Of a stretch of DNA of 57,027 nt, positions 3,913 through 49,971 are shown one piece after another. How positions within the stretch are numbered: position 1 is the stretch's first letter; the number at the start of each line of letters is the position of its first letter. Where the stretch lies: the IMG/VR virus record IMGVR_UViG_3300010371_000009, positions 1 to 57,027 of that record. One strand, 5' to 3'. The translations under genes were made by a program, and so were the position numbers. The notes under the pieces are model-generated. The model did not search any database and was not told the origin of the DNA. It saw only the letters and a list, made by a program, of their open reading frames with translations. The DNA is from a virus.

Positions 3913-5142
3913 ATGGCTAACTCACTCTTAACTATTGACATGATTACTCGTGAAGCTGTGCGACTGTTTAAGAATAGCAATTTGTTTATTATGAATATGG
4001 ATACGCAATACGATAGTTCGTTTGCGGTGGATGGTGCTAAGATTGGTTCCAATCTTCGCATTCGCTTGCCTAACGATTATGTCGTTACGCAAGGGCCGGA
4101 AATGCAGCTTCAATCCACAACTGAACAGTTTACTAATTTAACTGTTAGCGATCAACGCAACGTTGCTGTGCCGTTCACTACAGCAGAACGCACAATGTCG
4201 ATTGACGATTATTCGGAAATTGTGCTTGCACCTATGATTAACAACTTGGCTGGTAAAGTTGCACAAGTTGTTATGGAAGGTTCTGAAGGTGGTGTTTGTA
4301 ACTTCGTTGCCAATAAAGACCAGAATGGCACTATCATTAATGTCGATAGCCTTCAATTCTTAGAAGCTAACGCCATTCTTGATAATCAGTCTGCTGATCC
4401 AATGACACGCCGCGTTGTCAATGATCCGTTAACTGATGCTCGCACTACTAAGTCTCTGCAAGGTCTTTTAAATCCTACACCAGAGATTAGCTCGCAATTC
4501 CGTACTGGCATGATGAAGTCTGGTTTAGGTTATGATCGTTGGTTCCGTGACCAGACTGTTATCAAGCATATTTCTGGTACTTATGATAGCGCGAATGCTC
4601 CATCTACTGTTGATGCTGCTGGTCAAACTGGCAACACCATCACTGTTACTGCGTTGAATGGCACACTTAAGAAGGGCGATATTTTCACTCTTGAAGGTGT
4701 GAATGAAGTCAACCGCGTTACCAAGCAAAACTTGGGAACACTTCGTCAGTTTGTTGTTACTGAAGATGTTGATGCTGCTGGAACAGAAGTTTCGTTCTAT
4801 CCAGCGTTAATTCCTTCTAACAATGGTGCTGATGTTCAATATCAGACAGTTGATGTTTCGCCTGATGCTGGTGCTGATTTCCTTATGGTTACTAAGTCTG
4901 GTGAAGTTTATCGCAAGTCGATTGCTTATGTTCAAAAAGCAGTTACACTTGCTACAGCAGATTTAGTTATTCCCCGTAAGGCTGTTGAAGAAGCTGCGCG
5001 CGCCAATTACGATGGTATCGCAATGCGTATCTTAACAGATTATCTGCCTGGATCGGACCAGTTAGCAACTCGTGTTGACGTTCTGTTTGGATATAAGTAT
5101 ATCCGTCCAGAATGGCTGTGCGTGGTTGCAGACGCCATCTAA
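3913..5142 (+). CDS. Major capsid (coat) protein, P22 gp5-like
   Basis: 409 aa, close to the P22 coat length. It starts MANSLLTIDMITREAVRLF and contains the pattern typical of P22-type coats: IRLPNDYVV and a QGPEMQLQ strand, then DQRNVAVPFTTAER and DDYSEIVLAPMINNLAGKVA. A central insertion-like beta region (about residues 225-320) fits the extra domain of this class. Codons are less AT-biased than in neighbours, which would fit high expression. It follows the scaffold and precedes the gp4-like connector gene, the normal P22 order. Confidence 0.88.
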   Translation: MANSLLTIDMITREAVRLFKNSNLFIMNMDTQYDSSFAVDGAKIGSNLRIRLPNDYVVTQGPEMQLQSTTEQFTNLTVSDQRNVAVPFTTAERTMSIDDYSEIVLAPMINNLAGKVAQVVMEGSEGGVCNFVANKDQNGTIINVDSLQFLEANAILDNQSADPMTRRVVNDPLTDARTTKSLQGLLNPTPEISSQFRTGMMKSGLGYDRWFRDQTVIKHISGTYDSANAPSTVDAAGQTGNTITVTALNGTLKKGDIFTLEGVNEVNRVTKQNLGTLRQFVVTEDVDAAGTEVSFYPALIPSNNGADVQYQTVDVSPDAGADFLMVTKSGEVYRKSIAYVQKAVTLATADLVIPRKAVEEAARANYDGIAMRILTDYLPGSDQLATRVDVLFGYKYIRPEWLCVVADAI

Positions 5143-5151
5143 TCTAAAATA

Positions 5152-5177
5152 GGGGAAGGAATTAAAAAGCCTTCCCC
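5152..5177 (+). terminator. Stem-loop after coat gene
   Basis: Perfect 8-bp stem GGGGAAGG / CCTTCCCC with a 10-nt loop. The following ACAATTTTAAC is only moderately T-rich, so it may act as a partial terminator or as a 3' stabiliser that keeps coat mRNA abundant relative to downstream genes. Confidence 0.55.
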
Positions 5178-5202
5178 ACAATTTTAACAAAGGAAATCTA
5201 AA

Positions 5203-5406
5203 ATGGCTGTTGATAAAAAAGGCAAGATTAAATTGCTTTATCCTAAGCTTGTTGTGGTTGGACAAGACAAGAGCGGTAAGAATATTAAAAAGCGCGTTAT
5301 GAATGAAGAAGAAGAAAAGGCTTTGCTTGGTGTTAAAGAGCCTGAAAAGAAAGAACTTGAAAAGAAAGAAGAAACTAAAACTACTCCTGCTTGGGGTACT
5401 AAGTAA
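5203..5406 (+). CDS. Small Lys/Glu-rich hypothetical protein, 67 aa
   Basis: Unrecognised. It has AAAGGAAATCTAAAATG at its start. The N-terminal 30 residues look like a small beta unit; the rest is a charged helix ending in TTPAWGTK. The C-terminal WG motif resembles Trp-Gly motifs in three replication-side and accessory proteins of this phage. It overlaps the next gene by one base. Confidence 0.7.
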   Translation: MAVDKKGKIKLLYPKLVVVGQDKSGKNIKKRVMNEEEEKALLGVKEPEKKELEKKEETKTTPAWGTK

Positions 5407-6377
5407 TGACTACAGCCCGTGATATTGTCAATCTTGCGTTTAAGCAAGCTGGCATACTTGGGCTAGGTCAAACACTTAATGCTGAAGATACCAATGATGG
5501 CTTTACATTATTAAATCAAATGGTGGCACAATGGCAAAAGCGACGTTGGCTTGTGCCATCATTACAAATTTTAAATAAGACTTTAACTGGTCAAAAATCT
5601 TATACTGTGGGTTTAGGTGGTTTTTTCGATATTAAGCGACCAAGTGATATTAAAGGTGCTTATGTAATTCAAAAAAATACTGGTCCTGTTCCAGTTAGTT
5701 TGCAGCTAACTAAATTGTTTTCTTATGAAGATTACATAAGAATTGCTGTTAAAGATTTACAATCTTTACCAGATCATTTTTTCTACGATGCTCAATATCC
5801 ATTAGCTAATTTGTATATTTGGCCAGTTGGCAATTCGCTATATGAATTGTATATTCTTTGTCAAAGTCAATTGGGTTTTGGTACAACCATCAGTCAAGGT
5901 GCTATTAGTTCTGGTGGTACTCTTTATACCGATGGAATTTACAATAATATTTTACTAACTGGTGGTTCCGGTACTGGTGCAACAGCAGACATTACTGTTA
6001 CTGCTGGTGTAGTAACTTTGTTTAATTTATTAACTGGTGGTCAAAACTACAATATTGGCGACATACTTTCTGTAAACAATGCAGATATTGGTGGCACTGG
6101 TGCTGGTTTTGCTTATGTTGTTCAAAACATATCTGCCAATTTGAACACAGATGTTGTAATGCCACCTGAATATGAAGAAGCTTTGTTTTTAAATTTGAGT
6201 ATAAGACTTTCTGCAATGTATCAATTAGAGCCTACTTCAGCTACAGTTGTTTTAGCTAAGAAATCTTTGAACACACTAAAAACTATTAACACTCAAGTTC
6301 CTCAATTATCTATGCCTCAAGCACCTGGATTGCGAACGGGTAAAGCTTTCAATATTTGGAATGCTGACGGATATTAA
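5406..6377 (+). CDS. Head-tail connector, P22 gp4-like, with inserted repeat module
   Basis: The first 160 residues read as the P22 gp4 (tail accessory factor) family: MTTARDIVNLAFKQAGILG, then LLNQMVAQWQKRR, LPDHFFYDAQYP and LYIWPVG. The last 75 residues complete the helical part (MPPEYEEALFLNLSIRL). Family members are usually about 160-220 aa; this one is 323 aa because residues about 164-242 hold a Gly-rich beta module (LTGGSGTGATADITV, GQNYNIGDILSV, IGGTGAGF). The same module is duplicated in the next gene. Acts at the portal ring, closing the packaged head. Confidence 0.8.
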   Translation: MTTARDIVNLAFKQAGILGLGQTLNAEDTNDGFTLLNQMVAQWQKRRWLVPSLQILNKTLTGQKSYTVGLGGFFDIKRPSDIKGAYVIQKNTGPVPVSLQLTKLFSYEDYIRIAVKDLQSLPDHFFYDAQYPLANLYIWPVGNSLYELYILCQSQLGFGTTISQGAISSGGTLYTDGIYNNILLTGGSGTGATADITVTAGVVTLFNLLTGGQNYNIGDILSVNNADIGGTGAGFAYVVQNISANLNTDVVMPPEYEEALFLNLSIRLSAMYQLEPTSATVVLAKKSLNTLKTINTQVPQLSMPQAPGLRTGKAFNIWNADGY

Positions 6378-32615: not shown

Positions 32616-32822
32616 ATGAACCTTTATGAAAAAACGTTAAGTTTAATCAAAAATCGTCCAGCAAGAATATCGCTGCAACAAATTACAGATGATTTAAATA
32701 AGAAAAACATTGAAGTTAGTTATAGCTGGATATGTAAATTTCATCAAGGTGAAATTACTAATCCAAGCTATTTAACTTTGCAAGCTTTACATGACTATTT
32801 AGTGAGCGTCGTTAAACATTAA
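32616..32822 (+). CDS. Small HTH (Cro/CI-like) DNA-binding protein
   Basis: 68 aa, one domain. The helix-turn-helix reads ISLQQITDDLNKKNIEVSYS then WICKFHQGEITNPS and a final helix LQALHDYLVSVV, close to the Cro/C1 or Arc-type XRE layout. Product is a likely repressor of the divergent early promoters. With no companion integrase or second repressor, a Cro-like switch role is more likely than lysogeny control. Confidence 0.7.
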   Translation: MNLYEKTLSLIKNRPARISLQQITDDLNKKNIEVSYSWICKFHQGEITNPSYLTLQALHDYLVSVVKH

Positions 32823-32835
32823 CCACGCTTGCTAA

Positions 32836-35301
32836 GTGGGGGATATTTTGTATAATCCATATCAGCCTGACATGCAGGCTCAACTAAATAATTTCAATAA
32901 TATTCCAGAAGAATTAAAGGTTCTTCCACAATGGCTCGTATGGAAGTTTGAAGATATTGGTGCAGCAAAGCCTACTAAGGTTCCGTACAATCCCATTAGT
33001 GGTGAAAAAGCAAGCACAACTAATCCTAATACATGGGTAAAATTTGAAGAAGCTGTAGAAGCTTTTAAAACTTGTAAATGGGATGGCATTGGTTTTGTTT
33101 TTTCAGATAAAGACCCATACACATTTATAGATTTAGACGATACGCATGGCGATGCTATTGCATTAGATAAACAAATTAAAATCTTTCGTGAATTCGATAG
33201 CTACAGTGAAAAATCACCATCTGGTACAGGCTTACACATTATTATCAAAGGTGAAATTCCTGTAGGACGTAGAAGAAATTTTATTGAAATGTATAGCAGC
33301 GGTAGATATGCAACTTTTACAGGTGATATTTATCATAAAAAAGGTATTGAATATCGTCAAGAATTATTGACACAATTATTTGAACAAATTGGTTCGTCTG
33401 TTCCGCAAACTAATTTGTTTGTTGGTGATGCTCAAGAGAAAGAAACTGACGAAGTTATAATTGAGCGTGCAGCTAATGCTGACAATGGAATTAAATTTTC
33501 AGATTTATTTTCTGGTAGCTGGAACACTTATTATCCAAGTCAATCTGAAGCAGATTTGGCGCTTATCAACATCATTGCTTTCTATACGCAAAATAGAAAT
33601 CAAATTAAAAGAATATTTCACAAATCAGATTTAGGAAAACGTTTAAAAGCACAACGTCAAGATTATCTGAATTGGATGATTGACAAATCATTTGATAAAA
33701 TGTTACCTGATCTTGATTTTGATGGTTTTACAAATGTCCTAAAAGATCACATTCAAGAAATTAAAAATGAAGGTGCTGTAGCTCAAAGGTTAGAGCCATC
33801 CGCTCATAACGGATTGGTTGTAGGTTCAAGTCCTACCAGCACCACCACTAAAGAGGCATCGGTTAAAGGTAAGCCTGCACCCTTTGAAGGTGTTAATCCT
33901 GGTTCAAATCCAGGTGCCTCTACCAATTCAAAGCCACATTTAAATTTGCCACCTGGATTGTTAGGTGAAATTGCTCTTTTCATTTATCAATCATCGCCAC
34001 GTCCTGTACCTGAAATTGCATTAGCAGCGGCTATAGGTTTAATGAGCGGCATAACCGGACGTGCCTACAATGTATCTGGTACAGGTTTAAATCAATATGT
34101 TTTGCTTCTTGCTGGCACTGGTAGCGGTAAGGAAGGAATGGCTTTAGGCATCGACAAGTTAATGCACGAAATACGTCAACAGGTGCCTACTGCAATGAAT
34201 TTTATAGGACCATCTGAAATTGCATCTGGTCAAGCACTTATAAAATATATTGCAAACAACTCACAATGCTTTGTCACGATCCTTGGTGAATTTGGTTTGC
34301 GCCTTTTGCAGATGGCCAACTACAATGCCAATGGTGCGGAAGTTTCATTAAGAAGAATGCTGTTAGATTTATATAACAAATCTGGATTTGGACAAATAGC
34401 TAGACCTTCTGTTTATGCAGATAAAGATAAAAATACAAGCGCAATTCCGTCACCTTCGTTTAGCATTCTAGGTGAAAGCACACCAGAACGTTTTTATGGT
34501 GCGCTGAATGAAGATATGATTAGTGAGGGATTGCTGCCACGGTTTCTTCTAATTGAATACAATGGTTATCGCGTGCCATTCAATAAAATCCACGGCGAGA
34601 TAAAGCCAACTTTCAGCTTAATTGAAAAGCTGACTACCGTTTGCGCCAACGCTGAAATGATCCAAAATTCAAATCCGCGCAAAGTTATCAATGTAAAATT
34701 TACAAGAGAAGCAGAACAAATTTCAGATAGTTATGATCGTTATGCAGATAGTCAAATAAATTTAAATGGACAAAAAGATGTTGTTAAGCAGCTATGGAAT
34801 AGAGCGCATATTAAAGTTTTAAAATTGGCTGCAATCATAGCTGTGGGCATAAATATGTTTGAACCATTGATAGAAGCAGATCACATGAATTGGGCTATAT
34901 CAATGGTCAATAATGATATTGAAACTCTTAGCCTTAAGTTTGAAGAAGGCAAAATAGGAATGAACACTAGCGAGATAAAACAGATTGATGACATTATTAG
35001 AATTATAAAAGAATATGTCATGCAAGATTGGGAATATGTAAAGAAATATTCAGATAAAAGCGAAAAGTCTGAAAAGATGTATAATGACAAGGTAATCAGC
35101 TATTCATATATTAGCCGTCGATTGGTCGCGCAATCAGCATTCAAGAATGACAAGCTAGGTGCTACAGCAGCGATCAAACGTTGCTTACAAATTATGATTG
35201 ATAGAGATTACATTCGGGAAATGAGCAAAGGTGAATTGGGAAATCGCTTTGGGACTTCACAACGCGCATTCATTGTCACCAATCCAACTATTTTAAAATA
35301 G
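32836..35301 (+). CDS. Prim-pol primase/DUF3987-like helicase fusion containing two tRNA genes
   Basis: 821 aa. N-terminal bifunctional prim-pol region: LPQWLVWKFE, KVPYNPISGEKAS, catalytic FIDLDD (98-102), SPSGTGLHIII, EMYSSGRYATFTGD. The C-terminal half is a DUF3987-type ATPase: LAGTGSGKEGM (Walker A, about 424-434), then a typical Glu-rich core and ERFYGALNEDM. Residues about 313-364 are encoded by two complete tRNA genes (33772-33925) read in frame, which make an interdomain linker with AQRLEP and NPGSNPGAS. The TTG at 32848 with GGGGGA upstream may be the actual start. Confidence 0.82.
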   Translation: MGDILYNPYQPDMQAQLNNFNNIPEELKVLPQWLVWKFEDIGAAKPTKVPYNPISGEKASTTNPNTWVKFEEAVEAFKTCKWDGIGFVFSDKDPYTFIDLDDTHGDAIALDKQIKIFREFDSYSEKSPSGTGLHIIIKGEIPVGRRRNFIEMYSSGRYATFTGDIYHKKGIEYRQELLTQLFEQIGSSVPQTNLFVGDAQEKETDEVIIERAANADNGIKFSDLFSGSWNTYYPSQSEADLALINIIAFYTQNRNQIKRIFHKSDLGKRLKAQRQDYLNWMIDKSFDKMLPDLDFDGFTNVLKDHIQEIKNEGAVAQRLEPSAHNGLVVGSSPTSTTTKEASVKGKPAPFEGVNPGSNPGASTNSKPHLNLPPGLLGEIALFIYQSSPRPVPEIALAAAIGLMSGITGRAYNVSGTGLNQYVLLLAGTGSGKEGMALGIDKLMHEIRQQVPTAMNFIGPSEIASGQALIKYIANNSQCFVTILGEFGLRLLQMANYNANGAEVSLRRMLLDLYNKSGFGQIARPSVYADKDKNTSAIPSPSFSILGESTPERFYGALNEDMISEGLLPRFLLIEYNGYRVPFNKIHGEIKPTFSLIEKLTTVCANAEMIQNSNPRKVINVKFTREAEQISDSYDRYADSQINLNGQKDVVKQLWNRAHIKVLKLAAIIAVGINMFEPLIEADHMNWAISMVNNDIETLSLKFEEGKIGMNTSEIKQIDDIIRIIKEYVMQDWEYVKKYSDKSEKSEKMYNDKVISYSYISRRLVAQSAFKNDKLGATAAIKRCLQIMIDRDYIREMSKGELGNRFGTSQRAFIVTNPTILK
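33772..33847 (+). tRNA. tRNA-Met/Ile2 (anticodon CAT), inside primase frame
   Basis: Complete cloverleaf by eye: acceptor GGTGCTG / CAGCACC, D stem GCTC/GAGC, anticodon stem ATCCG/CGGAT with loop CTCATAA, T stem GTAGG/CCTAC with TTCAAGT, discriminator A and encoded CCA. Loop sequence fits elongator Met or lysidine-modified Ile2; I cannot distinguish them. It lies wholly inside the primase-helicase reading frame. Confidence 0.9.
33852..33925 (+). tRNA. tRNA-Gln (anticodon TTG), inside primase frame
   Basis: Acceptor AGAGGCA / TGCCTCT, D stem GGTT/AGCC, anticodon stem GCACC/GGTGT with loop CTTTGAA, T stem CCTGG/CCAGG with TTCAAAT, discriminator A, encoded CCA. Four bases after the preceding tRNA; both share the primase reading frame. 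Confidence 0.9.
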
Positions 35302-40832: not shown

Positions 40833-40834
40833 AA

Positions 40835-41035
40835 ATGGATAGTGAAAAGCGATGGTTTGTGTTTAGAACACATTTAAATTATGCAAATTTTGGCAAGCTT
40901 GGTCAATCATTTTTAAATACTCAATTGATTGGTGGGCCATTTGAAAAGTCAGAAGGGGAAGAATATTGTAGAGATTTGATTAAAGATAAATGCGCTGATG
41001 AATTTTACGGATTGATTGAATACATAGGAGAATAA
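40835..41035 (+). CDS. Hypothetical protein, 66 aa
   Basis: Unrecognised small alpha/beta protein (RWFVFRTHLNYANFGKLG, GEEYCRDLIKDKCADEF). Two bp from the previous gene. Confidence 0.6.
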   Translation: MDSEKRWFVFRTHLNYANFGKLGQSFLNTQLIGGPFEKSEGEEYCRDLIKDKCADEFYGLIEYIGE

Positions 41036-41037
41036 AA

Positions 41038-41223
41038 ATGATGGAAGATAAGCAATATTTTGTTATCAAGCAAGTTGTAGTAGGTATGTTCATATCTAAA
41101 TATATTGTTGTAGATGGTCCGTTTGAGTATGCTAGCGCATGTTTGCGTGTAAAGCATTTATCTAATAAATGTCGATCTAAAAATTTAAATTATAGTATAG
41201 CTGAATATGAAAGGGAAGATTAA
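41038..41223 (+). CDS. Hypothetical protein, 61 aa
   Basis: Unrecognised; beta-strand start (YFVIKQVVVGMFISKYIVVD) like its upstream neighbour, which has a comparable layout (strand, FxxxxGGPFE or DGPFEYASACL, helix). The two may be diverged tandem duplicates. Confidence 0.6.
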   Translation: MMEDKQYFVIKQVVVGMFISKYIVVDGPFEYASACLRVKHLSNKCRSKNLNYSIAEYERED

Positions 41224-41430
41224 ATGTCACATGATTTAATAAAAACTATGGTTAAAAATGCTATGAAAGTGCTCGCAACAGCCTTGACTATTGCTCCTAC
41301 TCGTGAAGAAGCTTTTAGAGGATTGGAGCTATTGAATGATGATTTTAAAGAAATTATCAATCATTGTTATGATGTTAAGGAAGGAAAGAATGTTGTCAAG
41401 ATGGTTGTGAATAACGATAAAAAGGCTTGA
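41224..41430 (+). CDS. Hypothetical protein, 68 aa
   Basis: Unrecognised, mostly helical (MVKNAMKVLATALTIAPTRE, AFRGLELLNDDFKEIIN). Follows the previous stop with no gap, so it is probably translated by coupling. Confidence 0.6.
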   Translation: MSHDLIKTMVKNAMKVLATALTIAPTREEAFRGLELLNDDFKEIINHCYDVKEGKNVVKMVVNNDKKA

Positions 41431-41433
41431 TAG

Positions 41434-41661
41434 ATGACAAATTTAATGGATGACAGTATTGCTAAATTTGTGCATGGTGAAAGATATAGAAATTTAAATA
41501 TTATATGTCATATTAATTCTTATGGATCATTAAGTGTTGTAGTTGTCGATAGCTACAATAAGTATCTGTTTGGTGGAAATAACATACTTGACGCTAGAAC
41601 ATTTATTGATATTTATATCAAGATATGTAAAGAAAAAGGCTTGACAATGAAGATACATTAA
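41434..41661 (+). CDS. Hypothetical protein, 75 aa
   Basis: Unrecognised small alpha/beta protein: ICHINSYGSLSVVVVDS then FIDIYIKICKEKG. Three bp after the previous stop. Confidence 0.6.
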   Translation: MTNLMDDSIAKFVHGERYRNLNIICHINSYGSLSVVVVDSYNKYLFGGNNILDARTFIDIYIKICKEKGLTMKIH

Positions 41662-41700
41662 GATATGTTCTACTTGTCTAACGACAAATGGAGATTACCG

Positions 41701-41910
41701 ATGGCTTACACAACTTTCAATTTTAAGAGCAAGAAGGCTTTGAAAGAAGCAATCAAGAGTGAGCAAATTCGCTGCTATCAGCCTGGATTAGGACCAGACC
41801 TTTCAAACTTCACTGGTAGGGTTTCTCTTGAAGGCCCGCATTATCCCAAGCCACATACATGGTATGCTGAAGCTGAATTGGTGAATGGTGTTGTTGTGAA
41901 GGTGAAATGA
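41701..41910 (+). CDS. Hypothetical protein, 69 aa
   Basis: The ATG at 41701 has GGAG nine bases upstream; the frame's earlier ATG at 41665 is set aside. The protein starts AYTTFNFKSKKALKEAIKS (after Met) and has RVSLEGPHYPKPHTWY, a small beta unit. Base composition is less AT-rich than neighbours, so expression may be higher. Confidence 0.65.
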   Translation: MAYTTFNFKSKKALKEAIKSEQIRCYQPGLGPDLSNFTGRVSLEGPHYPKPHTWYAEAELVNGVVVKVK

Positions 41911-41911
41911 C

Positions 41912-42100
41912 ATGATGATTTTTAGTAGCAATATAGATAATGAATATAAAGATAAAATTTTAGAAGCTGCTAAGCGAAGTGGTTGTTATATTGAAATAAG
42001 ACTACCTACTAATGAGCTTTTAAAAGATACTCATTTTAGTTTGTGGCGTAAAGAATTTGATATTAGTAAGTTTTGGCGTGAATATGAGAAGTTGGAGTAG
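41912..42100 (+). CDS. Hypothetical protein, 62 aa
   Basis: Unrecognised. Charged helix-strand layout (DKILEAAKRSGCYIEIRLP, FDISKFWREYEKLE). Starts one base from the previous stop. Confidence 0.55.
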   Translation: MMIFSSNIDNEYKDKILEAAKRSGCYIEIRLPTNELLKDTHFSLWRKEFDISKFWREYEKLE

Positions 42101-42106
42101 TTTTAA

Positions 42107-42193
42107 ATGATCTATGATATTTTAAATGTTTTGTTTTGGATTTGTTTTCTTGTAATTTGCGCGCGTTTGATGTATCTTGAATTGAAGCAATAG
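42107..42193 (+). CDS. Tiny membrane peptide, 28 aa
   Basis: One hydrophobic helix (ILNVLFWICFLVICARLMYL) with a short polar tail. The stop codon lies inside the first arm of the inverted repeat at 42189, so reading the peptide would run into the RNA stem. Confidence 0.4.
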   Translation: MIYDILNVLFWICFLVICARLMYLELKQ

Positions 42194-42294
42194 GAAGGTA
42201 GAGCTTACTTTATTGATATATACCAGTTTGGTAAGTCACAGTATGTTGATAAAGGACAAGGCTTGCGCGCGAAAGGCTGCTCTACCTTCCTATT
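42189..42294 (+). ncRNA. Structured RNA element closed by a 16-bp perfect stem
   Basis: AATAGGAAGGTAGAGC (42189-42204) is the exact complement of GCTCTACCTTCCTATT (42279-42294). Within it, CTTTAT (42208-42213) pairs ATAAAG (42249-42254), capping TACCA/TGGTA (42221-42225, 42229-42233) with a GTT loop. The remaining arm holds GCGCGC. There is no gene in the 74-nt interior. Either a small RNA or a cis element of the gene at 42310. Confidence 0.6.
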
Positions 42295-42309
42295 ATTTTG
42301 AGATATATA

Positions 42310-42498
42310 ATGAAACATAAATATGTAATAAGTGGTGATGGCACAGGTAGAACCTATGGTATCTACAAAGTGCTATCTGGTGTTTTTGTTTTTCCAATTG
42401 ATAGAGATTTAGTGGAAGGTGGATTGAAAAATCTAACTGCTGCGCGAAAGCGTGTTAAAGAATTGAATAAACAAGATGGAGAGAGCTTGGATGATTAA
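42310..42498 (+). CDS. Hypothetical protein, 62 aa
   Basis: The ATG at 42310 (MKHKYVISGDG) is chosen over the TTG at 42298. Unrecognised alpha/beta protein with TYGIYKVLSGVFVFP and TAARKRVKELNKQ. It lies 15 nt after the RNA stem, which could regulate it. Confidence 0.6.
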   Translation: MKHKYVISGDGTGRTYGIYKVLSGVFVFPIDRDLVEGGLKNLTAARKRVKELNKQDGESLDD

Positions 42499-42664
42499 GA
42501 TTACTCATACAGACAATACAGTTGGATATGTTTGTAAGCGCGAAATTAGCTCTATGTTTTGGGACGTTTCTACAAAAAATACAAGAATTAGAATGACCAA
42601 TGGCGATACCATTTATGTTAATGAGCCGCCAGAATTTCTTTTAATTCTTAATGGAGAAGGGTAA
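42491..42664 (+). CDS. Hypothetical protein, 57 aa
   Basis: ATG at 42491 follows GGAGAGCTTGG; the earlier start at 42476 is poorer. Beta-rich (MIKITHTDNTVGYVCKREI, NTRIRMTNGDTIYVNEPP). It resembles the next gene's product in layout, which suggests duplication. Confidence 0.6.
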   Translation: MIKITHTDNTVGYVCKREISSMFWDVSTKNTRIRMTNGDTIYVNEPPEFLLILNGEG

Positions 42665-42849
42665 TGCTTAAACTTAAAGATGCAGATAATAATAAAAAAT
42701 GTATTTATCTTCATCCTCCACACATTGTTTATATGTGTAATTATAATGATGGAGAAACAATGGTAAATATGATTGACAATACTGCTCTTTATGTTAAAGA
42801 AAGCTGTGAGGAAATTCTAGCTATGATGGAGAAACTTAAAAATGTCTGA
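42664..42849 (+). CDS. Hypothetical protein, 61 aa
   Basis: TAATG overlap with the previous gene. Same beta plan as its neighbour (KKCIYLHPPHIVYMCNYN, TMVNMIDNTALYVKES), so the pair are probably paralogues. No function assigned. Confidence 0.6.
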   Translation: MLKLKDADNNKKCIYLHPPHIVYMCNYNDGETMVNMIDNTALYVKESCEEILAMMEKLKNV

Positions 42850-43072
42850 TCTTAAATCGCACATTCTTGAAGAAGCGATTGAAGCTGGTGTAGAGTGTTT
42901 TAAGAAAGGTGTTAAGATTATTTTAATTACAACTAACAGCAAAGGACGCGCGTTGGAAGTTCTTAGGCTAGCTAATATTGCAATGACTAAAGAAATCGAA
43001 GAATTTTATAAGGATGAAATTTCTAAGACAACGTTGGATGAATTTATAGAGAGCTTCAAAGAAATCTATTGA
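42842..43072 (+). CDS. Hypothetical protein, 76 aa
   Basis: Unrecognised helical protein (SHILEEAIEAGVECFKKGVK, ISKTTLDEFIESFKEIY). Its stop overlaps the -35 box of the ncRNA promoter at 43069. Confidence 0.6.
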   Translation: MSDLKSHILEEAIEAGVECFKKGVKIILITTNSKGRALEVLRLANIAMTKEIEEFYKDEISKTTLDEFIESFKEIY

Positions 43073-43097
43073 CAGCTTATTGTGGGTATAGTATAAG
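43069..43097 (+). promoter_or_regulatory. Sigma70 promoter of the 43.1-43.4 kb ncRNA
   Basis: TTGACA (43069-43074), exactly 17 nt, TATAAG (43092-43097). The best + strand promoter match in the accessory region, and it reads into a stretch with no gene. Confidence 0.75.
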
Positions 43098-43103
43098 AGC
43101 TAC

Positions 43104-43432
43104 AAGTAACTGAAAGGAAAACCCTTTAGTGGTGAAAGCGACTATAGCTTTCTTCCGAGTAAGTGAAACAAACATTGGAGGTACGTTATGTGCGGGATAT
43201 TAAAGCCCGCTAATTAGAACGCGGTTTAGAAGTGCCAGAAATGAAATAGCGAAAGCACAAGTTACCGCAGAGACAAATAAACTGACTTGATTTATGAAAT
43301 AAACTTGCAAGATTATTTATAGCCTTGGCGTCGGGCAGATAGCAATAGACGTTAATTTAACCAAGGTGGTTAAAATGAAGATGATCTAATTAGAAATGAG
43401 GGGTAGCGACGCACACTCGCTACCCTTTTTTT
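43104..43432 (+). ncRNA. Free-standing structured ncRNA, about 330 nt, class unknown
   Basis: No credible ORF. It lies between a strong promoter and an intrinsic terminator. Potential helices include AAAGG/CCTTT (near 43122-43136), GAAAGC/GCTTTC (43134-43152), GCGGG/CCCGC (43193-43211), GCGGT/ACCGC (43221-43268) enclosing GTGC/GCAC with a GCGAAAGC tetraloop, and CCTTGG/CCAAGG (43323-43366) enclosing CGTC/GACG. The density of paired elements, several with GNRA-like loops, argues for a folded functional RNA. I do not match it to tmRNA, 6S, RNase P or a known riboswitch. Confidence 0.7.
43399..43432 (+). terminator. Terminator of the ncRNA
   Basis: Perfect 9-bp stem GGGTAGCGA / TCGCTACCC with a 7-nt loop and T7 directly after. 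Confidence 0.9.
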
Positions 43433-43455
43433 ATTTATATTGTTGGATATTTTAA

Positions 43456-43653
43456 ATGATACTTCAACTTGATCCACCATTAATTTTAAATACACCTAAA
43501 GGTAAAGCAATCTGTCATTTGGTGATTGACTATGGTATAGAACATGACTTAGAATGGGTTTGTTTTATCCATGAAACTGGCGAATGTTGGACGTATCGTA
43601 ATCAAGATGTAAGAATAATTGAGAATGTAACAATAGGACGAACATTTAAATGA
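43456..43653 (+). CDS. Hypothetical protein, 65 aa
   Basis: Unrecognised; beta-rich (LILNTPKGKAICHLVIDYG, WVCFIHETGECWTYRN). TTTTAAATG start context. It begins a coupled series of very small genes. Confidence 0.6.
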   Translation: MILQLDPPLILNTPKGKAICHLVIDYGIEHDLEWVCFIHETGECWTYRNQDVRIIENVTIGRTFK

Positions 43654-43811
43654 ACAATGTTATAGAAGTAATTTCACAAATTGCTGTTGTAATTGCTCTT
43701 ATTGTGCTTGCTGAAATGCTCCTGCTTGTGAATATCTTGCTCGCATCATTGATTTGTATGATAATTAAAGAGCGGTGGTTGTGGTTTAAGGAAAAGTTTA
43801 AGAAAGTTTAA
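43650..43811 (+). CDS. Small membrane protein, 53 aa
   Basis: ATGA overlap with the upstream gene. Long hydrophobic stretch (about residues 10-38, IAVVIALIVLAEMLLLVNIL and further) then a basic tail (ERWLWFKEKFKK). First of nine tiny ORFs in a row, eight of them hydrophobic. Confidence 0.55.
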   Translation: MNNVIEVISQIAVVIALIVLAEMLLLVNILLASLICMIIKERWLWFKEKFKKV

Positions 43812-43928
43812 ATGATGTATTTAGAATTTTTGTATTGGATGAATGTGATTTTGATCTTGATTACATCATTGTTTGTGGTATTAACTATTAGAGAAGCCTT
43901 TATAGATTTTAAGGACAAGTCTAAATGA
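43812..43928 (+). CDS. Tiny membrane protein, 38 aa
   Basis: One helix (FLYWMNVILILITSLFVVLT) and a charged tail (REAFIDFKDKSK). Abuts the preceding stop; ATGA overlap with the next. Confidence 0.5.
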   Translation: MMYLEFLYWMNVILILITSLFVVLTIREAFIDFKDKSK

Positions 43929-44068
43929 AATCTCACAGTGTCCTACCATCGCGCAAACAAAGTAAGAAAGCTGTTCATAAGGTCTTGAAAGCGACTAAGA
44001 ACCATCATGACCGCACAGCTATCAATTATAGCAAGCAAAAGAAATCTAAGCTTGGATTGATGAAATGA
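43925..44068 (+). CDS. Small basic peptide, 47 aa
   Basis: Soluble and very Lys/Ser/His-rich (LPSRKQSKKAVHKVLKATKN, INYSKQKKSKLG), the only non-membrane member of the series. ATGA overlaps at both ends. It might bind nucleic acid. Confidence 0.5.
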   Translation: MKSHSVLPSRKQSKKAVHKVLKATKNHHDRTAINYSKQKKSKLGLMK

Positions 44069-44160
44069 ACAATAAGCTTGACTGGATTACAATAGTGTGT
44101 ACAATAGACATTGTAATATCAACTTTAGCTTTGTATTGTCTTTATTCAAAAGGAATGTAA
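44065..44160 (+). CDS. Tiny membrane protein, 31 aa
   Basis: Single helix (WITIVCTIDIVISTLALYCL) between short polar ends. Overlaps its upstream neighbour by ATGA. Confidence 0.45.
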   Translation: MNNKLDWITIVCTIDIVISTLALYCLYSKGM

Positions 44161-44162
44161 AC

Positions 44163-44285
44163 ATGAATGCTCGTTTTGTATTTGAATTGATGGAAGATGT
44201 TGCTTTGGTAATCGGTACTGTGCTGGTTGGTGCGGCTATTGGGCTTGGTGCAGCAATGATTGTCATTTTTAATTTCTTTCTGTAG
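44163..44285 (+). CDS. Tiny membrane protein, 40 aa
   Basis: ATG at 44163 is used; a longer frame to 44097 overlaps the preceding gene. Gly/Ala-rich helix (LVIGTVLVGAAIGLGAAMI) of a kind that packs into oligomers. Confidence 0.5.
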   Translation: MNARFVFELMEDVALVIGTVLVGAAIGLGAAMIVIFNFFL

Positions 44286-44293
44286 GTGATGAA

Positions 44294-44398
44294 ATGTATT
44301 TATCTTTTGCAGAATTAATAGTTTTATCACTCTTGCTTACAACTTTAGGATTTATTATTGGAATGGTTTGCGCCGCAGCTATATTCTTGAAGGACTAA
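44294..44398 (+). CDS. Tiny membrane protein, 34 aa
   Basis: One helix (LIVLSLLLTTLGFIIGMVCA) with a short charged end (FLKD). Eight bp after the previous stop, with GTGATGAA as its weak ribosome site. Confidence 0.45.
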   Translation: MYLSFAELIVLSLLLTTLGFIIGMVCAAAIFLKD

Positions 44399-44401
44399 GC
44401 G

Positions 44402-44488
44402 ATGATCTATGAATTTTTAATTTCTAGCATCGTTGGTGGTGTGATTGGTGCTCTTATTGTCAATATTACAATTTATTTAAATAGGTGA
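44402..44488 (+). CDS. Tiny membrane protein, 28 aa
   Basis: Single helix (FLISSIVGGVIGALIVNITI) with Gly-x-x-x-Gly spacing. Three bp after the previous stop. Confidence 0.45.
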   Translation: MIYEFLISSIVGGVIGALIVNITIYLNR

Positions 44489-44493
44489 TAACA

Positions 44494-44634
44494 ATGCCAT
44501 ATCTATTTATATTTTTAACTTACATTTTTGGATTTAGTTGTGGAATTATGTTTATTTGCTTCCTTGCATATTTGGTTGAAATCAAGCATATTCGTTCTAT
44601 GAATGATAATCCTTATAAGTTGTGGCCAACATGA
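44494..44634 (+). CDS. Small membrane protein, 46 aa
   Basis: One long helix (LFIFLTYIFGFSCGIMFICF) then a polar tail (EIKHIRSMNDNPYKLWPT). AGGTGATAAC upstream is a plausible ribosome site. Confidence 0.5.
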   Translation: MPYLFIFLTYIFGFSCGIMFICFLAYLVEIKHIRSMNDNPYKLWPT

Positions 44635-44717
44635 TTACTGATATGTGGTCTATTATTTATTGCGCCGCACCACTCTTTTCGCTTGCAATGTTAATCGTTG
44701 TGGGTAAGCTGTTCTAA
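44631..44717 (+). CDS. Tiny membrane peptide, 28 aa
   Basis: One helix (MWSIIYCAAPLFSLAMLIVV). ATGA overlap with its upstream neighbour; last of the tiny series, ending one base before the structured element at 44718. Confidence 0.45.
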   Translation: MITDMWSIIYCAAPLFSLAMLIVVGKLF

Positions 44718-44932
44718 TCGGGGGACACTCCTGATAGCAGGTGAATGTTAGCATCAGCTAAATAAAAAGATTGCTTGCCTACATTGTTATTGACGCGACA
44801 AGCCCCTTTAATAATGTTGGTTAAAATGTAGTCCCTTTGATACTTCATCGTTTACATTAAAGCAATCGAGATACTTTGAGGCAGAATAACCTTAGAATTA
44901 GCTAAGACTAACCTTGAAGGTAGCTAACATAA
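44718..44932 (+). ncRNA. Multi-branched structured RNA element, about 215 nt
   Basis: No credible gene. A closing stem ATGTTAGC (44745-44752) / GCTAACAT (44923-44930) encloses GATTGCTT (44769-44776) / AAGCAATC (44860-44867), inside which CTACATT (44779-44785) pairs AATGTAG (44825-44831). Two hairpins follow, CTTAG/CTAAG (44891-44906) and ACCT/AGGT (44911-44921). The next ATG lies just 2 nt beyond the closing stem, so it could be a leader that gates that gene. No terminator or promoter is obvious. Confidence 0.6.
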
Positions 44933-45124
44933 ATGTCTTATATAATTCAAGAAGAAGATGGGATGATACTTTACTATAAGAAATGTAAAAATAAAGATTG
45001 TAATAATCAAATAGCAATAGGGTTGTCTAAAGAATATTGTTTTAAATGTGCGGGTTTCTCTAAGAAAGATTATCGTGATAAGAAGTGGCTCTTGAGCTTT
45101 CATCGTCAGGAAAGGTTGTATTGA
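44933..45124 (+). CDS. Small Cys-rich hypothetical protein, 63 aa
   Basis: Two Cys pairs, CKNKDC (residues 18-23) and CFKC (36-39), suggest a zinc finger. A basic C-terminus follows (WLLSFHRQERLY). The start lies 2 nt after the closing stem of the RNA element. The TGATG overlap at its end couples it to the next gene. Confidence 0.65.
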   Translation: MSYIIQEEDGMILYYKKCKNKDCNNQIAIGLSKEYCFKCAGFSKKDYRDKKWLLSFHRQERLY

Positions 45125-46926: not shown

Positions 46927-47129
46927 AAACACCTAAGTTTGTTGTCTCTCGTAATGTCAATAATACATCTTACTATTTTAAAATTAGTAAAGGTGAAATT
47001 TGGTGGATTAAGGATAGCAAAGACGCCAATTCTTATTCATCAAAATATGCTGCTAAAAAGCATATCAAAACTATTGACAACATACCAGAAGATGTTAAAG
47101 TAGTAGAGCTAGAAACTATCAGTGCGTAG
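46923..47129 (+). CDS. Hypothetical protein, 68 aa
   Basis: Unrecognised beta-rich protein (KFVVSRNVNNTSYYFKIS, ISKGEIWWIKDSKDAN). Its TAG stop is supplied by bases 8-10 of tRNA-Pro. Confidence 0.6.
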   Translation: MKTPKFVVSRNVNNTSYYFKISKGEIWWIKDSKDANSYSSKYAAKKHIKTIDNIPEDVKVVELETISA

Positions 47130-47196
47130 CTCAGCTTGGTAGAGCGATTGCTTTGGGAGCAATAGGTCGTAGGTTCAAATCCTACTGCACTGACCA
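47120..47196 (+). tRNA. tRNA-Pro (anticodon TGG)
   Basis: Acceptor CAGTGCG / TGCACTG (one G-T), D stem GCTC/GAGC, anticodon stem ATTGC/GCAAT with loop TTTGGGA, T stem GTAGG/CCTAC, discriminator A, encoded CCA. First ten bases overlap the upstream gene. Confidence 0.92.
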
Positions 47197-49192: not shown

Positions 49193-49269
49193 GCTTGCGT
49201 AGCCCAACCGGCAGAGGCAAAAGACTTAAAATCTTTACAGTGTCGGTTCAAATCCGACCGCAAGCACCA
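49193..49269 (+). tRNA. tRNA-Leu (anticodon TAA), short variable arm
   Basis: Acceptor GCTTGCG / CGCAAGC, anticodon stem AAAGA/TCTTT with loop CTTAAAA, T stem GTCGG/CCGAC, discriminator A, encoded CCA. The variable region is only about 5 nt (ACAGT), whereas bacterial tRNA-Leu is a class II tRNA with a long variable arm. The anticodon reads UUA. Confidence 0.85.
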
Positions 49270-49744: not shown

Positions 49745-49906
49745 ATGTGGAAATTTGAACAGGAATGTACTAATTCAGGTGTATTTATTAAAGATGATGA
49801 ACGTACTAATTTGCAAATCATTAATGATGATAATGATTTGTCAAGTGAAGATTTAGAGCTAGCTAATACAATTTGCGATTTGTTAAATAATCTTAAGCTG
49901 GATTAG
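49745..49906 (+). CDS. Small acidic hypothetical protein, 53 aa
   Basis: Acidic (IINDDNDLSSEDLELANTI). Its TAG stop is bases 8-10 of tRNA-Thr, a repeat of the arrangement at tRNA-Pro. Confidence 0.55.
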   Translation: MWKFEQECTNSGVFIKDDERTNLQIINDDNDLSSEDLELANTICDLLNNLKLD

Positions 49907-49971
49907 CACAGTGGTAGTGCAATCGCCTTGTAAGCGATAGGTCAGAAGTTCAAATCTTCTATCCAGCACCA
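49897..49971 (+). tRNA. tRNA-Thr (anticodon TGT)
   Basis: Acceptor GCTGGAT / ATCCAGC, D stem GCAC/GTGC, anticodon stem ATCGC/GCGAT with loop CTTGTAA, T stem AGAAG/CTTCT, discriminator A, encoded CCA. Confidence 0.92.

Follow-up and report, generated by a model that had tools for sequence, protein, structure and literature searches.

Complete tRNA genes recurrently embedded in frame within the interdomain linker of a phage primase-helicase gene

Complete tRNA genes lie in frame within a primase-helicase gene, at one interdomain linker site, in 21 distinct loci of uncultured phages in IMG/VR. These loci carry 32 such tRNAs, which are intact and covarying, lie in sense orientation at a fixed site within an open frame, and have turned over repeatedly. 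They present a clear and recurrent phage case of one stretch of RNA that selection maintains in two roles, as structured tRNA and as coding sequence for the central part of a replication enzyme. The reference locus is in the window, the whole 57,027-nucleotide stretch of DNA that was analyzed; it is a contig of a tailed phage and carries genes for terminase, portal, major head protein, and DNA polymerase.

Two tRNA genes had been proposed at the window locus in an earlier, sequence-only reading, and ARAGORN and Rfam RF00005 agree exactly on the positions of both: a 76-nt tRNA-Met/Ile2(CAT) at positions 33772 to 33847 (plus strand) and a 74-nt tRNA-Gln(TTG) at positions 33852 to 33925 (plus strand). 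As that reading had stated, they are 4 nt apart (spacer at positions 33848 to 33851, plus strand), and CCA is encoded in each. Both programs accepted the cloverleafs; each has four stems and an anticodon and lies above the RF00005 threshold, with scores of 71.7 and 58.7 bits against a gathering score of 29. The CAT tRNA is read in codon phase 0, its sole stop-free phase, and tRNA-Gln is read in codon phase 2, which is common to all 13 Gln homologues. In the window Rfam matched tRNA models only, with no match to a self-splicing RNA, and a Pfam search found no intein domain in the primase-helicase protein; an intron or intein was ruled out on these grounds.

Compared with E. coli tRNAs, the CAT tRNA is presumably closer to tRNA-Ile2, which decodes AUA, than to elongator tRNA-Met. 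If it is Ile2, all five tRNAs of the window read A-ending codons. The window phage has a G+C content of 36%, and CAA makes up 79% of its Gln codons and AUA 23% of its Ile codons. The three other tRNAs, also for A-ending codons, are intergenic: Pro TGG (47120 to 47196), Leu TAA (49193 to 49269), and Thr TGT (49897 to 49971).

The host open reading frame (positions 32836 to 35301, plus strand) starts with GTG and encodes 821 amino acids, and the 821-codon frame indeed runs through both tRNAs with no stop. Its product matches phrog_3022 over residues 18 to 811 and has the order of an NrS-1-like primase-helicase, a prim-pol fold and HBD followed by an AAA+ ATPase. Pfam matches were PF22763 and PF13148 (NrS-1-type HBD and DUF3987). 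Foldseek matched NrS-1 N300 (E value of 1.6e-15) and MCM (E value of 1.1e-6); the NrS-1 prim-pol was matched in PDB by both sequence and fold, and the second half is MCM-like AAA+ by fold. The tRNAs encode residues 313 to 364, exactly the segment that joins the prim-pol/HBD half to the ATPase half. This places them at the linker where the sequence-only reading had put them, and 457 codons follow. The AlphaFold model has a mean pLDDT of 83.3. A helix ends at residue 313, directly ahead of residues 313 to 367 (positions 33772 to 33936, plus strand), the sole internal stretch to fall under a pLDDT of 50; the tRNA cassette encodes almost the whole of it. Since this stretch matches the tRNA-encoded residues, the tRNAs are predicted to encode a disordered tether of the primase-helicase. 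Two PHROG families of unknown function, 27748 and 23857, weakly match the peptide encoded at positions 33772 to 33925 and, because of these matches, may be translated tRNA genes.

Loci were gathered from IMG/VR by a profile search and by a DNA pattern (T-arm plus PPGLxGE); the pattern picks tRNA-bearing loci, so that the 21 loci, window included, give no prevalence estimate. The profile search alone found linker tRNAs in 12 of 80 loci, including L056 and L057, which have an identical tRNA and flanks and were entered once among the 21. All 32 embedded tRNAs (17 CAT, 13 Gln, 1 Tyr, and 1 Leu) are on the coding strand, each entirely within the in-frame sense open reading frame, and the frame is open in all 21 loci. 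Number, order, identity, and codon phase of the tRNAs differ among loci. Met precedes Gln in the window and in L031, L033, L035, L059, L113, and L134; Gln precedes Met in L044, L092, L125, and L235; Gln stands alone in L057 and L131, Met alone in L100, L108, L121, L122, L124, and L135, Tyr alone in L047, and Leu alone in L065. An assembly error at the window, against which the earlier reading had cautioned, was not borne out, the same site and an open frame being found in 20 further distinct metagenomic phage loci.

Among cultured phages, peptide probes that spanned the tRNAs and the start of the helicase turned up no embedded case; the match with the best coverage, in Sphingomonas phage Kharn, was rejected, having no tRNA. 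A pattern scan of genome contigs for prophage or host copies returned 81 stretches, none with the primase. We also rejected as an embedded case the tRNA-Gln ahead of MazG in L030 (Xanthomonas phage Langgrundblatt2; positions 2061 to 2135) and L062 (positions 4561 to 4635). It belongs to the leader ahead of the ATG start of a MazG-like gene, with a promoter-like site of its own, and the annotated long coding sequence that covers it is probably a start-site error.

The tRNA folds are closely kept. In the CAT tRNAs (n = 16), 99.4% of stem cells are paired, with two-sided changes at 15 of 21 pairs; in the Gln tRNAs (n = 12), 98.8% are paired, with two-sided changes at 18 of 21 pairs. None of 500 shuffles came as high on these measures, and a shift of the partner by a single column destroyed them, so the homologues covary along the stems of the RF00005 fold. 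Rfam confirmed 30 of the 32 embedded tRNAs at 48.7 to 71.7 bits, including one in L108 (55.3 bits) that was detected only by a targeted scan; for L235, both calls come from ARAGORN alone. Anticodon loops are conserved, and the CCA end is encoded in 31 of 32. Because the stems covary strongly, selection maintains the tRNA folds.

The reading frame is kept along with the folds. Twenty-four of the 32 embedded tRNAs have one stop-free phase and eight have two, and in every one the frame uses a phase free of stops. The product of the open-phase fractions over the 32 tRNAs is 1.4e-13, a value that assumes independence among loci that are related. No open phase exists in 19 of 102 other tRNAs of the fetched loci, versus none of the embedded ones (Fisher P value of 0.007, calculated for the first 30 embedded). 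Spacers in paired cassettes range from -1 to 25 nt, with differences within each order that are multiples of three: the seven Met-Gln spacers (1, 4, 4, 4, 7, 7, and 25 nt) are all 1 modulo 3, and the Gln-Met spacers (5, 5, 2, and -1 nt) are likewise constant modulo three. One L035 tRNA is a base shorter (75 nt); its open phase is shifted, and the codon phase is shifted along with it. The need for an open frame is not by itself a full explanation of the sense orientation of all 32 tRNAs, since 14 of them could be read antisense in some phase. The 21 loci, the stem covariation, and the conserved frame strongly support the central point of the sequence-only reading, the joint retention of structured tRNAs and a coding frame at this linker. 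In L235 (positions 4496 to 4644), tRNA-Gln and tRNA-Met overlap by 1 base, the last A of CCA being the first base of the next tRNA; the two therefore could not both be excised whole from one transcript without CCA repair.

Related phages with and without linker tRNAs were both found. A quick tree of 95 primases placed 18 of its 19 tRNA-bearing rows in one 27-member clade (SH-aLRT of 99) that mixes tRNA-bearing and tRNA-free members; L065, with tRNA-Leu, lies outside it. The recurrent cases are not independent, since most tRNA-bearing loci share this clade. The tRNA-type labels require at least 8 changes on the tree, and the linker is therefore a cassette position that has been remodeled repeatedly. 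No tRNA match or remnant was detected in the linkers of the tRNA-free sisters, and those that were read have ordinary linkers; the linker tRNAs are dispensable, since some phages of the clade do without them. Cultured relatives (Septimatrevirus and others), with proteins 35 to 50% identical, have short, tRNA-free linkers, and those examined encode one fused primase-helicase.

In the window, the nearest upstream sense promoter-like site is at positions 32829 to 32856, more than 900 nt from the tRNAs, and a scan for sigma-70-type sites found no sense site between position 32856 and the tRNAs. Because this is the nearest such site, the primase transcript is the most likely source of the embedded tRNAs. 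A small HTH repressor-like gene (positions 32616 to 32822, plus strand) lies directly upstream of the primase-helicase, with the same small neighbor in relatives, and is likely the first gene of a two-gene transcript. Excision of a tRNA by RNase P would be expected to leave an upstream piece that lacks a stop codon and a downstream piece that cannot be translated; each transcript would therefore give tRNA or protein.

We think it probable that the transcript has a dual use, each copy giving tRNAs by processing or else primase-helicase by translation. The tRNAs would be transcribed within the primase-helicase mRNA, with no recognizable sense promoter of their own nearby. On some transcripts they would fold, host RNase P would cut their 5′ ends, and 3′ nucleases would then expose the encoded CCA, yielding phage tRNAs that would serve AUA and CAA, A-ending codons of which this AT-rich genome has many; an mRNA copy cut in this way would be destroyed. 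On other transcripts, ribosomes would translate straight across the tRNA sequence in its unfolded state to give the full-length enzyme, in which the tRNA-encoded peptide would act as a flexible tether. Both the cloverleafs and the open frame are kept by selection. We infer the tRNA processing, the translation through the tRNAs, and their either/or relation from sequence patterns.

The sequence-only reading had raised, as one option, that cleavage would split primase from helicase. Downstream of the cassette in the window, no Shine-Dalgarno-led start precedes the conserved helicase domain, and the only candidate elsewhere, a weak one, is in L121 (GGAG ahead of an internal ATG at +117). A productive split is unlikely, since the helicase half has no preceding ribosome-binding site. 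The position of the cassette, exactly at the domain boundary, and the ability of the NrS-1 prim-pol half to fold alone (N300 structures) would suit two separate working proteins, but the 5′ piece would have no stop codon, the window's 3′ piece has no suitable start, and the cultured relatives examined encode a single fused protein. An open frame through the tRNAs is also needless for splitting, yet it is kept in 21 of 21 loci, and we give two separate proteins a slim chance. The tRNAs could alternatively come from short transcripts of an internal promoter while the full-length mRNA stays intact because translating ribosomes hold its tRNA region unfolded, with no either/or relation. Phage tRNAs can carry promoters of their own, and a TTGACA/TAGCCT promoter-like site lies directly before the leader tRNA-Gln in L030 and L062. 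The distance of more than 900 nt to the nearest sigma-70-type sense site in the window speaks against such a source, which we regard as unlikely.

That the tRNAs are nonfunctional passengers, captured by recombination and tolerated as a supply of linker codons, would fit a linker that is disordered and tolerates variation in length and sequence. Against it stand the strong compensatory covariation of the stems, the conserved anticodon loops, the encoded CCA, and the high scores of the tRNAs. Moreover, a passenger kept for coding alone should decay, and the tRNA-less sisters examined hold no decayed copy; we consider passengers quite improbable. In favor of an assembly artifact or chance overlap, every case comes from metagenomic assemblies. 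However, independent assemblies with proteins 44 to 60% identical to that of the window have different tRNAs at the same site, and the other tRNAs of these loci are mostly outside long frames. An artifact is very unlikely, with a probability close to nil, because the arrangement recurs in 21 assemblies.

The dual-use transcript might further be a regulatory switch or timer, in which competition between ribosomes and RNase P on each transcript sets the ratio of primase-helicase to tRNA and cassettes are swapped according to host. We offer this tentatively and rate it somewhat doubtful; if true, it would tie genome replication to the translation state. Demand-sensing attenuation through AUA or CAA codons ahead of the cassette was rejected, since the 25 codons upstream of it are not enriched in either (ATA, 2.0% versus 1.9%; CAA, 2.6% versus 3.2%).

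The closest precedent is selB/selC. Mukai (2021; PMC8124441) predicted that selC (tRNA-Sec) is nested at the 3′ end of selB in Alphaproteobacteria, proposed tRNA and protein as alternative products, and termed it the first bacterial case. In both systems an entire sense-strand tRNA is read in frame as protein, alternative products are proposed, and the evidence is bioinformatic (PMC8124441). Whereas selC lies at the 3′ end and supplies only a C-terminal tail, the phage tRNAs are no such extension; they lie midgene, before a conserved and probably essential domain, and about 450 helicase codons can be translated only by reading through them. selC is one special tRNA, overlaps the start of the next gene, and has degenerate remnants (PMC8124441), and selB is a cellular gene. 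The phage loci carry an exchangeable set of ordinary tRNAs, often two in tandem, in a replication gene to whose protein they have no functional tie (Ile2/Met, Gln, Tyr, or Leu), unlike tRNA-Sec with SelB. A tRNA-Lys of the Armadillidium vulgare mitochondrion lies fully inside the cox1 coding region in the same orientation, and a comparable either/or mechanism has reportedly been put forward for it (Doublet 2015, as cited in PMC8124441); that case concerns a single tRNA in a compact mitochondrial genome, whereas the phage genomes span tens of kilobases and have intergenic tRNAs too. The embedded tRNAs resemble ordinary phage tRNAs in being canonical, with CCA, and in matching A-ending codons of an AT-rich phage, but ordinary phage tRNAs, like the window's Pro, Leu, and Thr, are normally intergenic. 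The protein shares the prim-pol, HBD, and ATPase fusion of NrS-1-type and Septimatrevirus primase-helicases (the latter 48 to 50% identical); those examined have short, tRNA-free linkers, unlike that of the window.

A search of open-licence papers found no phage report of a tRNA within an open reading frame and only the selB/selC precedent. What is new here is the occurrence of exchangeable multi-tRNA cassettes midprotein in a phage replication gene. The loci make the sharing of one transcript between ribosomes and RNase P testable and show that disordered protein linkers can be landing sites of RNA genes. Gene and tRNA callers usually exclude overlaps, and real biology may stay hidden as a result.

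Some further irregularities were seen in these genomes. The primase-helicase of Pseudomonas phage PSV3 (L020 and L021) is in pieces with short duplicated segments; we rejected a relation of these split genes to tRNAs, as they look like assembly errors in the deposited records. In L067 (positions 4980 to 6323), the primase frame stops at 448 codons while similarity runs on, possibly through a sequencing error or a real truncation. The window itself has about 4 kb (positions 40833 to 45084) without an open reading frame of 90 amino acids or more, which is unusual in a phage.
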